Assembly: GCA_947630325.1 (NCBI GenBank)
Contig: CANRHB010000007.1
Span: forward strand, 34,527-98,526
Direction of reading: 5' to 3'
DNA from: an uncultured Clostridia bacterium
Lineage (GTDB): Bacteria; Bacillota; Clostridia; Christensenellales; Borkfalkiaceae
DNA: 64,000 nt
This document shows positions 51,898-57,349 of this stretch, piece by piece. The notes beneath the pieces were generated by a model that was given only the letters and a program-made list of their open reading frames with translations, made no database searches and was not told where the DNA came from. Numbering within the stretch: position 1 is the first letter of the stretch; every line of letters starts with the position of its first letter. Position numbers and translations under genes: made by a program.

Positions 51898-53475
51898 ATG
51901 TTACAAGTAAACGGCGTAAGCCTGCAATACGGAAGCAAAAAACTGTTCGAGGACGTCAACTTAAAATTCACCGCGGGGAACTGCTACGGCATCATCGGCG
52001 CAAACGGCGCGGGCAAGTCCACCTTCCTCAAAGTGCTTTCGGGGGAGATCGAACCCAACAAGGGGGAGGTCATCCTCGGCAAGAACGAGCGCATGTCCGT
52101 GCTTGCCCAAAACCAGAATAAATACGACAGCGAAACGGTGTTGCGCACCGTCATGCTCGGGCACAAGCGGCTCGTGGAGATCATGGACGAGAAGGACGCC
52201 CTCTATGCCCATGCCGAATTCACCGAGGAGGACGGCGTGCGCGCCTCCGAACTCGAGAGCGAGTTTGCCGAGCTCGGCGGCTGGGAGGCGGAGAGCGAGG
52301 CGGAGACCCTTCTCAACGGCCTCGACATCGGCAGCGAATTCCACTACACCCTCATGGGGGAGATGGACGCCAAGCAGAAGGTGAAGGTGCTCCTCGCGCA
52401 GGCGCTCTTCGGCAATCCCGACGTCCTCCTTTTGGACGAGCCCACCAACAACCTCGACCTCAAAACGGTGCGCTGGCTGGAAAATTATCTCCTCGACTTC
52501 GAGAACACCATCATCATCGTCTCCCACAACCGCCACTTTTTGAACAAAGTCTGCACCCACATCTGCGACGTCGATTTCGGCAAGATCAACCTCTATCTCG
52601 GCAACTATGATTTTTGGTACCAGACTTCCCAGCTCATGGCGCGCCAGCAGAGGGACGCCAACAAGAAGGCCGAACAGCGCGCCGCCGAACTCAAAGAATT
52701 CATCGCGCGGTTCGCGGCGAACGCAAGCAAGTCGCGGCAGGCGACCTCCCGAAAAAAAGAACTCGAAAAACTTACCATCTCCGACTTCAAGCCCTCCCTC
52801 CGCAAATATCCCTTCATCGAGTTCAAGTACGAGCGGGAGATCGGCAACGACATCCTCATGGTGGAAAACCTCTCCAAGAAGGGGTACTTCGAAAACGTCT
52901 CCTTCACGGTGCAGAAGGGGGACAAGATCGGCATTCTGTGCGATAAGTCCACTTCGGTGACCATGCTCTACGATATTTTAACGGGCAAGCAGGAGCCCGA
53001 CGCGGGCACGGTGAAGTGGGGCAAGACCATCAATTATTCCTACTATCCCCTCGACAACGGGGAGTTCTTCGACGGCTGTACGCTGACGCTGGTGCAGTGG
53101 CTGTCGCAGTTTTCCAAGGACCATTACGAGGAGTACCTGCGCGGCTGGCTGGGGCGGATGCTCTTCTCGGGGGAGGAGGCACTCAAAGAGGCGCGGGTGC
53201 TCTCGGGCGGGGAAAAGGTGCGCTGTATGCTGGCGAAAATGATGCTCGAAGGGGGGAATTTCCTCATTTTGGACGAGCCCACCAACCACCTCGACCTGGA
53301 GAGCATCACCTCGCTCAACAATGGCTTAACGGCGTTCAAGGGGTGCCTTCTCATGACCTCGCACGACCAGGAGCTGATGAACACGGTGTGCAACCGCATC
53401 ATTGTTTTGAACGGCACCAAGACTTACGATAAGTCCATCACCTTCGACGAATATCTGGACACCATCAGCGGTTGA
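51898..53475 (+). CDS. ABC-F family ATPase
   Basis: 525 residues with two ABC domains and no membrane segment. Domain 1: GANGAGKSTFLKVLSGE, DVLLLDEPTNNLDL, but a weak signature MGEMDAKQKVKVLLAQ. The linker (about residues 240-310) is a charged helix (KELEKLTISDFKPSLRK). Domain 2 has an altered Walker A (GILCDKSTSVTMLYD instead of GxxGxGKST), a good signature LSGGEKVRCMLAKMML and FLILDEPTNHLDLESI. This matches the YkpA/YbiT-like group that act on ribosomes or in resistance. Substrate or antibiotic unknown. Confidence 0.9.
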   Translation: MLQVNGVSLQYGSKKLFEDVNLKFTAGNCYGIIGANGAGKSTFLKVLSGEIEPNKGEVILGKNERMSVLAQNQNKYDSETVLRTVMLGHKRLVEIMDEKDALYAHAEFTEEDGVRASELESEFAELGGWEAESEAETLLNGLDIGSEFHYTLMGEMDAKQKVKVLLAQALFGNPDVLLLDEPTNNLDLKTVRWLENYLLDFENTIIIVSHNRHFLNKVCTHICDVDFGKINLYLGNYDFWYQTSQLMARQQRDANKKAEQRAAELKEFIARFAANASKSRQATSRKKELEKLTISDFKPSLRKYPFIEFKYEREIGNDILMVENLSKKGYFENVSFTVQKGDKIGILCDKSTSVTMLYDILTGKQEPDAGTVKWGKTINYSYYPLDNGEFFDGCTLTLVQWLSQFSKDHYEEYLRGWLGRMLFSGEEALKEARVLSGGEKVRCMLAKMMLEGGNFLILDEPTNHLDLESITSLNNGLTAFKGCLLMTSHDQELMNTVCNRIIVLNGTKTYDKSITFDEYLDTISG

Positions 53476-53481
53476 GTTTTC

Positions 53482-53765
53482 ATGCCCCCTCCGGGGGAGG
53501 GGGCATGAAGAACCCAACGGAACCCCCTCCATTGGAGGGGGATCAAGGGGGTGGGTACCGTTCCCTAATGTCATGTCGAGCGAAGTCGAGACATCTCTAC
53601 CGCATTATAATAAGGCGAGATTTCTCCACTTCGCTCGCGGTGCTCGCTTCGGTCGAAATGACATGATCAGAACACGCCCCACCCCCCTACCCCCCTCCCA
53701 CGGAGGGGGCATGAGGAAACCAACGGAACCCCCTCCATTGGAGGGGGATCAAGGGGGTGGGCAAC
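53482..53765. repeat. Family C, A, C repeats
   Basis: C units at about 53482-53555 and 53675-53762 (CCCCCTCCATTGGAGGGGG with a GATCAAGGGGGTGGG tail), enclosing a family A element (GTCATGTCGAGCGAAGTCGA at 53570 to TCGAAATGACATG about 53665). Confidence 0.8.
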
Positions 53766-53816
53766 ATTCACCTCCACGCTCCCACAAAAATTTTCCAAAA
53801 AATTTCCGAAAAACGC

Positions 53817-53846
53817 TTGACAAGGGTTTTTTGTTTGTGATAGGAT
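53817..53846 (+). promoter_or_regulatory. Promoter of the Met-rich leader transcript
   Basis: TTGACA (53817-53822), 18-base spacer, TAGGAT (53841-53846). Start of transcription is expected around 53850-53853. Confidence 0.65.
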
Positions 53847-53855
53847 GTAGGAGTT

Positions 53856-53933
53856 ATGAAACATTCGAACTATCGCAACTACATGTACATGCGTCGGTCC
53901 CGGGCAGGAATGCGCGGGTTTTCGGCGATGTAA
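53856..53933 (+). CDS. Met- and Arg-rich 25-residue leader peptide
   Basis: ATG at 53856 is preceded by AGGAG (53849-53853); the stop is TAA at 53931-53933. Met occupies positions 1, 10, 12, 19 and 25, with the cluster NYMYMRRSR at 8-16. It lies directly between a promoter and a strong terminator, before metN-metI-metQ. The layout is that of a ribosome-stalling leader peptide sensing charged tRNA-Met. Arg is equally frequent (7, 13, 14, 16, 20), so arginine sensing cannot be excluded by composition alone. Too short for ordinary gene callers. See the terminator/antiterminator entry. Confidence 0.6.
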   Translation: MKHSNYRNYMYMRRSRAGMRGFSAM

Positions 53934-53988
53934 AAAACCGGAAACTTGTTCATCTCCGCTCGGGACGTTTTCCCCGGGCGGTTTTTTT
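53897..53988 (+). terminator. Attenuator: terminator and competing antiterminator pairing
   Basis: Terminator: CCGCTCGGG (53956-53964) pairs with CCCGGGCGG (53973-53981), one G-U, an 8-base loop and seven T residues (53982-53988). Antiterminator: GTCCCGGGC (53897-53905, codons 14-17 of the leader peptide) can pair with GCTCGGGAC (53958-53966), which uses most of the terminator's 5' arm. The two structures exclude each other. A ribosome stalled at Met codons 10-12 would leave or partly leave 53897-53905 free; one reaching the stop would not. An additional AAAAAACCG/CGGTTTTTT pairing is possible. Confidence 0.6.
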
Positions 53989-54011
53989 GTGCCTTGGGGA
54001 GGCTTGGCGCC

Positions 54012-54238
54012 CATGCGTCATTCCGAGCCGTAAAGGAAATTACGAAGTCCGACATGGATAGTCCCCGAGGGAATCTTGCTACGTCCAAGTACGTTTTAAC
54101 CCAACCCGAACGTACCAAGATGCCTTCGCGGACATGCTAAAACGGACTGCGTAAACACAAGACGGCTACTTCGTCGCAGGCTCCTCGTGCCGCCCTTAGG
54201 CAACATAGAACGTGCGGGCGGGGCAGCATGACGCGAAC
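54012..54238. repeat. Family D repeat, reverse orientation, between attenuator and metN
   Basis: CGTCATTCCGAG through CGAACGTACCAAGATGCC, CTTCGTCGCAGGCTCCTCG and CGTGCGGGCGGGGCAGCATG: the reverse complement order of the element at 16485-16694. It would be part of the metN mRNA leader if the attenuator is read through. A further copy of the GCGGGCGGGGCAG end lies at 54258-54270. Confidence 0.8.
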
Positions 54239-54315
54239 AAAGCACGATAGAACGTGCGGGCGGGGCAGCCAAGAGAAAGCCTTCCACCCAACCACCAACT
54301 CCAAAAGGAGAATTT

Positions 54316-55305
54316 ATGATAGAACTCAAAAATCTGACCAAGATTTATCCCTCAAAGGCGGGGGAGACCGTCGCGCTCGAGGACATCAGCCTCGTCATTC
54401 CCGACGGCTCCGTGTTCGGCGTCATCGGGCTGTCGGGCGCGGGCAAGAGCACCTTGGTGCGCTGTCTCAACCTCCTCGAAAAGCCCACCCGCGGACAGGT
54501 GCTCATCGACGGGGAGGACATCACCGCCGTCTCCAAAAAACGGCTGGGACAGATCCGCCGCTCCATCGGCATGATCTTCCAAAACTTCAATTTGTTGGAA
54601 CAGCGCACGGCGGCGGCGAACGTCCGCTTCCCCCTCGAACTTAGCAAGGTCCCCCGCGAGGAGGCAAAGAAGAGGGTGGAGGAACTTCTCTCCCTCGTCG
54701 GCCTCTCCGAAAAGGCGGACGCCTATCCCTCCCAACTCTCGGGCGGACAGAAACAGCGGGTCGCCATCGCAAGGGCTCTCGCCACCGACCCCAAATATCT
54801 TCTCTGCGATGAGGCGACGAGCGCGCTCGACCCCACCACCACCGAGAGCATTTTGGAACTTCTCAAAAAAATCAACCGCGAACTCGGGGTCACCATCGTC
54901 GTCATCACCCACGAAATGCGGGTGGTGGAGAGCATCTGCACCGACGTCGCCGTTCTCGACCAAAGCCACGTCGCCGAGGCGGGCAGGGTGGAGGAGGTGT
55001 TCTCCTTCCCGCAGTCGGAGATCGCAAAACAGCTCGTCATTCCAAACCTCATCCGCTCTCTTGCGGGGAGCGGCGCAAACAAACTCCGCCTCGTCTTTCA
55101 CGGCGAAACGAGCGACACTCCCGTCATCTCGGGGCTGGCTATGGAGTGCGGCGTGCCCGCGAATATCCTCTTTGCCGACACCCGCAGGATCGACGGAAAG
55201 ACGTTCGGGCACATGGTGATAGAACTTCCCCAAGACGAAAAGCAGATACAAGCCGCAAAGCAGTATTTAACGGCGCACAATGTTGTATTCAAGGAGGAAA
55301 TTTAA
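54316..55305 (+). CDS. metN: Methionine ABC transporter ATP-binding protein
   Basis: 329 residues. Walker A GLSGAGKSTLVRCLN, Q-loop FQNFNLLEQRTA, signature LSGGQKQRVAIARAL, Walker B LLCDEATSALDP and H-loop VITHEM. The C-terminal NIL domain (about 255-329; LRLVFHGETSDTPVISGLA) is the methionine-binding regulatory domain of MetN. AAAAGGAGAA precedes the ATG. One base after its TAA comes the gap to metI. Confidence 0.96.
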   Translation: MIELKNLTKIYPSKAGETVALEDISLVIPDGSVFGVIGLSGAGKSTLVRCLNLLEKPTRGQVLIDGEDITAVSKKRLGQIRRSIGMIFQNFNLLEQRTAAANVRFPLELSKVPREEAKKRVEELLSLVGLSEKADAYPSQLSGGQKQRVAIARALATDPKYLLCDEATSALDPTTTESILELLKKINRELGVTIVVITHEMRVVESICTDVAVLDQSHVAEAGRVEEVFSFPQSEIAKQLVIPNLIRSLAGSGANKLRLVFHGETSDTPVISGLAMECGVPANILFADTRRIDGKTFGHMVIELPQDEKQIQAAKQYLTAHNVVFKEEI

Positions 55306-55306
55306 G

Positions 55307-56014
55307 ATGGGTGAAGTACTTATCTCTCTTTTTCGGGACAATACGATGTGGATCGGGGTTTGGGAGACGATCTATCTCACGCTGCTCTCCACCGCATTCG
55401 CCTACGTGATCGGTCTACCGCTCGGCATTTTACTCTGCACGACCGGAAGGAACGGGCTCACGCCTGTGATATGGTTAAATAAATTGCTCGGGATCGTCGT
55501 CAACATCTTCCGCAGTATTCCCTTCATCATCCTCATGGTCGCATTTTTGCCTGTGGCGAAGGTGATAGTGGGAAAAACGTATGGCCCCGCCGCAATGGTG
55601 GTCATGCTTGTGATCGCCGCCGCACCCTATATTGCGCGCATGGTGGAATCTTCCTTGAAGGAGGTGGACGCGGGGGTCGTGGAGGCGGCAAAATCGATGG
55701 GAGCGAGCACCCTGCAGATCATTTGGAAGGTGTATCTGCCCGAGGCGAAGCCCTCCCTGCTCGTGGGGGCGGTCATCAGCATGGTGACGGTACTCGGCTA
55801 TTCGGCGATGGCTTCCACGATTCATGGCGGCGGGCTGGGAGAAATCGCTATCTTTTACGGATATAACAACTTCCAAGACGACGTGATCTGGATGTGCGTA
55901 TTCTTTACGGTGATCATCGTGCAGTTCATACAGGAGGGGGGGATGTACTTCGCCACCCGCACGGACAAGCGCGTCCGCGTCAAGGGCCGCAAAAAGAAGG
56001 CAAAAGCGGAGTAA
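55307..56014 (+). CDS. metI: Methionine ABC transporter permease
   Basis: 235 residues from the ATG at 55307, preceded by AAGGAGG; the frame upstream overlaps metN. About five or six membrane segments and the permease EAA-type loop (EAAKSMGASTLQIIWKVYLPEA) are visible, with GYSAMASTIHGGGLGEIA typical of MetI. The C-terminus is basic (KGRKKKAKAE). Works with MetN and the MetQ lipoprotein. Confidence 0.95.
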   Translation: MGEVLISLFRDNTMWIGVWETIYLTLLSTAFAYVIGLPLGILLCTTGRNGLTPVIWLNKLLGIVVNIFRSIPFIILMVAFLPVAKVIVGKTYGPAAMVVMLVIAAAPYIARMVESSLKEVDAGVVEAAKSMGASTLQIIWKVYLPEAKPSLLVGAVISMVTVLGYSAMASTIHGGGLGEIAIFYGYNNFQDDVIWMCVFFTVIIVQFIQEGGMYFATRTDKRVRVKGRKKKAKAE

Positions 56015-56027
56015 ATGCATACGGAGG

Positions 56028-56446
56028 GGACAACTCCTTGGCTCCCCTTGTAGGGGAGCTGTCACCGCAGGTGACTGAGGGGTTTTTTGAAACCCTTTCG
56101 GCACTGCGTGCCACTTTCCCTAAAAGGGACAGCAAGTGGAATACAAAACGCTATTCCCAAGTGTCATGTCGTCCCGCCCGCACGTTCCCAAATGTCATGT
56201 CGAGCGCAGTCGTCCCGCCCGCACGTTCTATGTTGTCGAAGGGCGGCACGAGGAGCGCAAGCGACGAAGTAGACATCTCTACCGCATTATCATAAGGCGA
56301 GATTTCTCCACTCCGCCTGCGGCTTCGGTCGAAATGACATTATAACCCTTGGCGCCCCTGTAGGGGAGCTGTCACCGCAGGTGACTGAGGGGTTTTTTGA
56401 AACCCTTTCGGCACTGCGTGCCACTTTCCCTAAAAGGGACAGCAAG
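56028..56446. repeat. Two family B copies around a family A element, inside the met operon
   Basis: B copies (reverse orientation) at about 56040-56136 and 56349-56446 share a perfectly identical 88-base stretch (56049-56136 and 56359-56446). Between them (56152-56343) are family A/D pieces (TGTCATGTCGAGCGCAGTCG, CCCGCCCGCACGTTCTATGT, TCGAAATGACA). This fills the 492-base metI-metQ gap. Confidence 0.85.
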
Positions 56447-56506
56447 GGAAAACCCATAACCCTCAAACTCAAAACAAATAAAAAATATTTTTAAGGAGAT
56501 ATTGTT

Positions 56507-57349
56507 ATGAAAAAGTTACTCGCTACTCTTGCCGCAGTTGCGGCATCCTGCATCCTCGCTTGCTCCCTCGTCGGGTGCGGGCAGACCAAAGACAAAGACA
56601 AAGTCATCACTGTCGGCGCGAGTTCCACGCCGCACGCCGAGATCCTCGAAGCCGTGAAGGACACCCTCGCCGCGGACGGTTGGGAACTTAAGATCGTCAC
56701 TTACGGCGACTATGTTCTGCCCAACACCGCCCTCGAGGACGGCGAACTGGACGCAAACTATTTCCAGCACACTCCCTATCTCGATAATTTCAATAAGGAG
56801 CGCGGCACCCATCTTGTCTCCGTCGCAAAAGTCCACTACGAGCCCTTCGGCGTGTACGGCAATAACGTGACGAAGGACGAATTTTCCGCCACCAAGACGG
56901 GCAGAACGATCTATGTTCCGGACGACGGGACAAACTGCACCCGCGCGCTTCTTTTGCTTCAGGACGAGGGTTACATCACCTTAAAAGCGGGGGTCAGCGC
57001 CGCCGACTCGCTCACCGATAAGGATATTGTGGAAAAGAACGGAAACGAGATCGTGCCCGTGGCTGCCGAACAGGTGCCCGCACAACTTAGAAATTCCGAT
57101 AAAGGCGATCTTGCGGTCGTAAACGGCAATTATGCGCTCGCTTCGGGGTTAGAGGTGAAGAATGCGCTTGCCGTTGAAAAAGCAGACGGTGACGCCGCAC
57201 AACTGTATGCCAACATCGTTGCAGTGAAAGAAGGCAATGAGAACAGCGAAAAAACAAAAGCCCTTCTTTCCGCGTTGCTCTCGCAGAAAGTCATTGATTT
57301 CATCAATACCAAGTATGACGGCGCAGTGTTGCCCGTGTTCTCGGTATAA
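56507..57349 (+). CDS. metQ: Methionine-binding lipoprotein
   Basis: 280 residues. Lipoprotein signal with lipobox SLVGC (Cys near residue 24), followed by the NLPA family body: VITVGASSTPHAEILEAVKD, DYVLPNTALEDGELDANYFQH, HYEPFGVYGN, VPDDGTNCTRALLLLQDEG and late residues IDFINTKYDGAVLPVF. It binds D/L-methionine outside the membrane for MetNI. TTAAGGAGATATTGTT precedes the ATG. Separated from metI by repeats, so it may also have its own transcript; none was clearly seen. Confidence 0.95.
   Translation: MKKLLATLAAVAASCILACSLVGCGQTKDKDKVITVGASSTPHAEILEAVKDTLAADGWELKIVTYGDYVLPNTALEDGELDANYFQHTPYLDNFNKERGTHLVSVAKVHYEPFGVYGNNVTKDEFSATKTGRTIYVPDDGTNCTRALLLLQDEGYITLKAGVSAADSLTDKDIVEKNGNEIVPVAAEQVPAQLRNSDKGDLAVVNGNYALASGLEVKNALAVEKADGDAAQLYANIVAVKEGNENSEKTKALLSALLSQKVIDFINTKYDGAVLPVFSV

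Follow-up and report, generated by a model that had tools for sequence, protein, structure and literature searches.

What controls the methionine-transporter genes metN, metI and metQ in this uncultured Clostridia bacterium? The first-pass annotation of the window, as we call the whole stretch of 64,000 nucleotides that was analysed, proposed a ribosome-mediated methionine attenuator upstream of metN. Sequence comparison supports this reading, since the frame, the alternative pairing and the terminator recur at every one of the 27 genus loci that carry metN. We consider it very probable that the element is a ribosome-mediated transcription attenuator which senses charged elongator Met-tRNA and controls metNIQ. 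Comparison and computation support the frame with its Met codons, the terminator, the co-fitting of arms A and T5, the link to metN and a stall position that would free A. From these we infer that the leader is translated, where its transcript starts, that ribosomes stall in it and that it responds to methionine; metN transcription may also start 3' of 53990. The features, in window coordinates, are the following:

53817..53846, + strand: putative sigma-70-type promoter, TTGACA at 53817-53822 and TAGGAT at 53841-53846, with an 18-nt spacer and TG ahead of the -10 hexamer
53849-53853, + strand: AGGAG, read in the sequence
53853, + strand: predicted transcript start, 3 nt 5' of the leader ATG, placed by spacing (7 nt past the -10 hexamer)
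53856..53933, + strand: leader peptide frame MKHSNYRNYMYMRRSRAGMRGFSAM and stop, 25 codons, ATG at 53856 and TAA at 53931-53933
53883..53891, + strand: Met10-Tyr11-Met12, the Met-x-Met motif, taken as the regulatory codons from comparison with metN loci
53897..53905, + strand: antiterminator 5' arm (A), GTCCCGGGC, within the leader frame, assigned from pairing with 53958-53966 and the swap test
53911..53918, + strand: A', TGCGCGGG, complementary to A, local hairpin in the frame, candidate role
53956..53966, + strand: terminator 5' arm (T5) at 53956-53964 and antiterminator 3' arm, GCTCGGGAC, at 53958-53966
53973..53988, + strand: terminator 3' arm and T7 run
54316..55305, + strand: metN, ATPase with a C-terminal NIL domain (PF09383 and PF00005 above cut-off; TIGR02314 the best NCBIfam match, 392.7 bits, below its cut-off of 499.7)
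55307..56014, + strand: metI, permease (PF00528; NF008049 the best match, 191.6 bits, cut-off 212; start codon read from the sequence)
56507..57349, + strand: metQ, substrate-binding lipoprotein (PF03180 above cut-off; NF008285 the best NCBIfam match, 151.6 bits, cut-off 374)

For all three genes the best NCBIfam match is a methionine-transporter model, each scoring below its curated cut-off. The promoter, the 25-codon frame with five Met codons and the 9-bp terminator followed by seven T residues are all present as the first-pass annotation described them. Met occupies codons 1, 10, 12, 19 and 25 of the frame, which also has five Arg codons. The terminator spans 53956-53981, with eight G-C pairs among its nine, and the T residues lie at 53982-53988. 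The complementarity that had been pointed out between 53897-53905 and 53958-53966, overlapping the 5' arm of the terminator, holds over nine positions, one of them a G-U pair. Taken by themselves, the window features are weak. The promoter scan finds one site versus 0.9 expected in shuffles, the terminator scan finds five in 3 kb versus 3.5 ± 1.8 in shuffles, and a short frame equally dense in Met arises in 10 of 2000 dinucleotide shuffles. It is conservation that makes the leader element real.

For the comparison, metN was used as bait and searched without reference to the leader, so that the leader was not selected for. The gene is present in 26 of 61 genus genomes, at 27 loci, two of which have identical upstream sequence. 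A Met-x-Met frame followed by a RAEMRG-like segment lies 5' of metN at all 27, a short conserved frame whose putative regulatory codons match the substrate of the operon; the motif, which was defined after inspecting these loci, occurs in none of the 27 reverse strands and in one of 2700 shuffles. Altogether there are 33 elements at these loci (27 type A, plus six second leaders of type B), and in every one of the 33 a terminator match lies between the frame and the first gene. Some terminator match is also found in 116 of 165 shuffled segments, but only two of the 165 score as high as the weakest real element and none as high as the real median. Thus, the search of relatives for a Met-rich frame plus terminator upstream of metN, which had been suggested as a check, returns the element at 27 of 27 genus loci. 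The leader peptide is identical in genome G023 and shares 73% identity over residues 4-25 with that of G006. A plain search with the window peptide has matches in only three of 41 genomes, its own included; the conservation thus emerges only when metN or a profile is used to look for it.

A covariance model built from 23 elements (R1) extends the link between leader and operon. At E <= 1.9e-10, R1 matches 44 sites spread over 42 of the 103 genus genomes, and all 44 have metN just downstream. They comprise the 27 known loci and 17 further matches in 16 genomes, each with metN 3' of it; metN of G007 is assigned from 43 residues at a contig end. Another 18 genus matches are weak (E > 1e-5). Four of these were read (G011, G099, G018:C15 and G068:C4) and none has metN downstream; those in G061, G095 and G047 correspond by coordinates to type-B second leaders of metN loci. 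The match in G011 (L165) is an MMQM frame ahead of an unrelated membrane-protein-like gene, and we take it as chance. In 201 family genomes R1 has eight matches in other genera, seven of them before metN, and metI and metQ follow metN in the six of these seven that are long enough. The weakest family match outside the genus, in G824, has no metN downstream. In another relative from a different genus with metN downstream, G839, Arg replaces the first Met.

The constant association with metN bears on a rival reading, in which the signal is not methionine but translation stress or an antibiotic, as it is for erm or msr leaders. Such a role would fit the ABC-F gene upstream, the conservation of the RAEMRG-like segment of the peptide and the MRRSR of the window leader. 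Against it, 44 of 44 strong genus matches of R1 precede metN, most leaders lack MRRSR when compared by eye, and Met-dense leaders of metN are also found in other Clostridia. We regard this reading as clearly improbable. The leader alignment likewise bears on arginine as the signal. The first-pass annotation had raised as a doubt that Arg codons are as frequent as Met codons; this is true of the window leader, with five of each, and as a rival signal it is largely answered by the relatives. Between the two Met codons, both of which are present in all 39 distinct leaders, the residue is Arg in 25, Tyr in eight and Cys in six. This list was drawn with the Met-x-Met pattern, yet no locus among the 27 + 16 lacked such a frame. 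With Tyr or Cys replacing the inter-Met Arg in 14 of 39 leaders, with the later invariant Arg falling in a pairing arm, and with an operon that encodes a methionine transporter by family, a frame responding to arginine is extremely improbable.

The distance between terminator and metN was a further doubt. The gap is real, metN starting 327 bases past the T run, and is not typical of the element. At 20 of the 27 genus loci only 20-48 bases separate the end of the last terminator stem from metN, and repeats lie in the window gap; we therefore count the 327-base gap as a local peculiarity of the window. The repeats are at 53485-53769, 54180-54269 and 56045-56451, around metNIQ and inside the gap, and include direct repeats of 97 nt and 79 nt, some shorter copies, and inverted copies 43 nt long (54180-54222 and 56214-56256). 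Stretches resembling them are seen by eye near the elements of G023 and G006. An ABC-F family ATPase gene (51898-53475) lies 5' of the attenuator.

Could metN instead be controlled by an unrecognised T-box or SAM-type riboswitch, with the frame incidental? T-boxes control methionine transporters in other bacteria (PMC2965389), and T-box matches do exist in these genomes, in 41 of 41 at E <= 0.001 and in 26 of 41 above the cut-off; this genome has two, the best at 69.9 bits versus a cut-off of 93. At the locus itself the searches are negative, as the first-pass annotation had supposed from the letters alone. Across the window, every Rfam family stays below its gathering score. The 31 sub-threshold matches at E <= 10 for 53480-54330 include neither T-box (RF00230) nor SAM families; many belong to microRNA families on G-rich repeats, and we take them as chance. 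SAM-I is absent from this genome and from 24 of 25 genus genomes. The 20 metN loci searched among at least 80, including four from the genus or close to it, have neither T-box nor SAM matches. Control by such a riboswitch is thus very improbable.

The attenuator reading further requires an antiterminator arm that competes for the 5' arm of the terminator. Arm A (CCCGGGCAG-like) lies within the codons after Met-x-Met and pairs with T5. In a swap test of 32 elements (one of 33 was omitted as identical), the A:T5 duplex of an element with its own partner has a mean of -22.8 kcal/mol versus -18.7 ± 0.60 for swapped partners, and none of 20,000 permutations is as good. Type A alone gives -22.6 versus -19.6 ± 0.57, again with 0 of 20,000 permutations, although four of the 26 type-A elements (L013, L021, L022 and L030) fit their own T5 worse than those of others on average. 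Competition for T5 is therefore supported for the elements together, the six near-identical type-B elements alone giving no signal. With 27 of 27 metN loci bearing the motif versus one of 2700 shuffles, and with this result of the swap test, there is next to no probability that a random short frame merely happens to stand before a commonplace terminator, near as the promoter and terminator scans alone come to shuffle expectation.

Covariation of 53897-53905 with 53958-53966, which had been named as a check, adds partial support to the swap test. In an alignment of 23 of the 26 distinct type-A elements, 78.6% of antiterminator cells are paired, compared with 74.6 ± 1.2 in shuffles and at most 53.4% when the arms are slid. 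The antiterminator covariation score is reached by only one of 500 shuffles, a figure that overstates the signal because these shuffles disregard relatedness. The number of pairs with a change in each arm does not exceed that in shuffles (251 of 500). The terminator has strong covariation. Since relatedness inflates the shuffle comparison and arm A is also coding, single compensations matter. One is found in L016, where an extension changes from GAAA to GTTT and its partner is AAAC. The local A:A' hairpin is nearly invariant, with 97.5% of cells paired in the 23 sequences and a covariation reached by 53 of 500 shuffles; it is not populated in the ribosome folding model described below. A nested A':T5 helix, noticed by eye, was rejected as unsupported (mean z -0.03, negative in 13 of 26).

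A stall at Met should free the antiterminator and further advance should cover it. We modelled this by folding the transcript as far as the 3' end of T5 while the ribosome hides everything up to 13 nt beyond the first base of the A-site codon; the model is one of equilibrium and ignores folding order. When the first Met codon occupies the A site, the predicted share of T5 paired with A has a median of 0.83 and exceeds 0.5 in 32 of 32 elements. With the second Met it is 0.50 (above 0.5 in 15 of 32), one codon further 0.21 (5 of 32) and two codons further 0.06, yet still above 0.5 in 7 of 32. Given this fall from 0.83 to 0.06, the Met codons are, in the model, close to the limit beyond which a stalled ribosome no longer frees the antiterminator. 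In computation, then, the expected switch is clear at the first Met and half-formed at the second, in agreement with the earlier remark that Met10 and Met12 sit just before the antiterminator arm, suitably placed for stalling control. Even when no ribosome is included, the antiterminator is the favoured fold in 29 of 32 elements, and the model thus fails to yield an off state for untranslated RNA.

The proposed switch would work as follows. When Met-tRNA is plentiful, the ribosome would pass Met10-Tyr-Met12 and cover arm A (53897-53905) while RNA polymerase makes T5. With A covered, T5 would pair with T3 and transcription would end within the T residues. If Met-tRNA runs short, the ribosome would stall with a Met codon in the A site, leaving A free to pair with T5. 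Formation of A:T5 would prevent the terminator, and metNIQ would be transcribed.

How the leader would be translated is a separate matter. The AGGAG sequence noted in the first-pass annotation is present. Its proposed role as a ribosome-binding site is probably wrong, because the predicted transcript start, at about 53853, puts AGGAG at or upstream of the 5' end. The window leader is probably leaderless or nearly so. At ten loci of the window subclade (L006-L010, L027, L158 and L162-L164), a TAnnnT hexamer stands 6-9 nt ahead of the leader ATG, as judged by eye; given this distance, their transcripts should start at the ATG or at most 3 nt 5' of it. An AGGAG-like site is absent by eye from eight of these ten, and many other genus loci have SD-like sequences, also judged by eye.

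Some loci carry the element in tandem. At six of the 27 (L018, L019, L021, L022, L026 and L030), a second leader of the MMQM type with its own terminator lies nearer to metN; in L026, the second frame has no stop ahead of its terminator. G095, G104 and G106 also carry a second leader, and G111 has two successive type-A matches. By locus, tandem methionine attenuators before metN, the second usually MMQM, are noted at the six loci above and at L151, L155, L156 and L159.

Is the design confined to the genus and its family? A wider MetN scan gave at least 80 loci, mostly from MAGs of Clostridia. From 80 of these, 73 upstream regions were kept after dropping five genus-like ones (L041 perhaps outside the genus) and two with fewer than 300 bases upstream. 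A frame with at least five Met in 14 codons is found in 12 of the 73, in none of the 73 reverse strands and at 0.00 in shuffles (40 each); at least four Met in 14 codons are found in 20 regions versus two reverse strands and 0.30 in shuffles. Since the remaining 53 of 73 have no frame that reaches four Met in 14 codons, the Met-leader design is common in Clostridia but not universal. All 18 outgroup leaders that were written out have a terminator match, and 16 were judged plainly Met-rich. A cultured relative, Agathobaculum massiliense (L059), also has a Met leader. Counting the start, L043, L044, L045, L048, L049 and L054 have 8-11 Met each (10 in L043 and 11 in L044), and L179 has 12 or 13 depending on start choice. 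The order has 55 metN matches outside the genus; of the best 26 of these, nine have at least four Met in 14 codons plus a terminator match, 16 have at least three Met in 14 codons, both counts made without a shuffle control, and several have none. In ribosome profiles computed for 16 outgroup leaders, predicted T5 pairing drops past the Met run in many, not in all, and is flat in L049, L063 and L066.

A pattern scan blind to metN (MMMxMxM) has a match in 85 of 391 class genomes. The 30 loci examined gave 26 stop-to-stop frames below 70 codons, most of which were rejected as leaders, apparently being out-of-frame readings of genes or low-complexity runs. Two resemble leaders, L179, with leader and terminator before metN, and L180. 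The latter, in G027, has the leader MSRMMMRMFMCESVSSCLLCCA and a terminator-like hairpin, and the next frame begins MRVWTIKDEK.

Outside the genus, the Met-rich leaders are also rich in cysteine. In 26 of them, hand-picked for Met and not for Cys and including L180, whose downstream gene is unassigned, Cys makes up 69 of 540 non-Met residues (12.8%) compared with 18 among the 1369 residues of four window proteins; it is also the commonest residue after Met (37 of 113). L079, from Candidatus Galacturonibacter soehngenii, has an MMCCCC frame 5' of metN with a weaker terminator match. The abundance of Cys suggests dual sensing of sulfur amino acids in these outside lineages; ATGTGC runs may also have other causes. 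We offer it as a tentative and rather doubtful extension that a sulfur-amino-acid attenuator class is common in Clostridia, in which Met and, in many lineages, Cys codons would control MetNIQ-type transporters, with leaderless forms in one subclade and tandem forms in others. Cys accounts for only 2.8% in leaders of the window's genus, so under this extension the window element would be a Met-only member.

Methionine starvation also limits initiation, and any Met leader must cope with this. A leader of the kind proposed here would therefore have to distinguish the supply of elongator from that of initiator Met-tRNA. Because the family offers natural leaderless, SD-led, single and tandem forms, this question is testable. 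The leader rule also allows the control of methionine uptake to be annotated from sequence in Clostridia that have not been cultured.

Ribosome-mediated attenuators control the trp, his, leu and ilv operons, and leader-peptide attenuation is textbook knowledge for Trp, His and Leu. The element described here shares with them leader codons for the amino acid putatively sensed, mutually exclusive hairpins and an intrinsic terminator. It differs in its Met codons, in the transporter operon, in the apparent leaderless start in the window's subclade and in the tandems of some relatives. T-boxes bind tRNA directly and do not need a leader frame. Like the Met T-box of the methionine transporter genes of Lactococcus lactis (PMC7058034), the element would be RNA control of a methionine transporter; unlike there, no T-box was found at the window locus. 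A closer likeness is the histidine leader peptide before hisS paralogues in bacilli, a leader-peptide attenuator replacing a T-box in Firmicutes (PMC2965389); it concerns histidine and a synthetase gene family, and the accessible text of that paper names no methionine leader peptide. A leucine-rich attenuator peptide is described for S. aureus (PMC5794164), and according to PMC1262725 methionine operons in Actinobacteria showed no conserved RNA structures in their upstream regions. In the open full-text literature, a scope outside which most subscription papers lie, a methionine leader before metNIQ is named, in the accessible texts, only in PMC8079986. There, a predicted metL leader on a leaderless transcript of Streptomyces lividans TK24 precedes metNIQ and is proposed to be an attenuator. 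Among open full-text papers, therefore, the mechanism is known and its methionine specificity is in print only as one single-species prediction. In both systems metNIQ is preceded by a leader frame containing several Met codons, on a leaderless transcript, here a predicted one. The S. lividans peptide is dissimilar, and a typical Rho-independent terminator is reported absent in the accessible text of the same paper (PMC8079986). By contrast, the element described here has a terminator and a competing arm, is conserved across the genus and in further genera of its family, and recurs as a design in other Clostridia.
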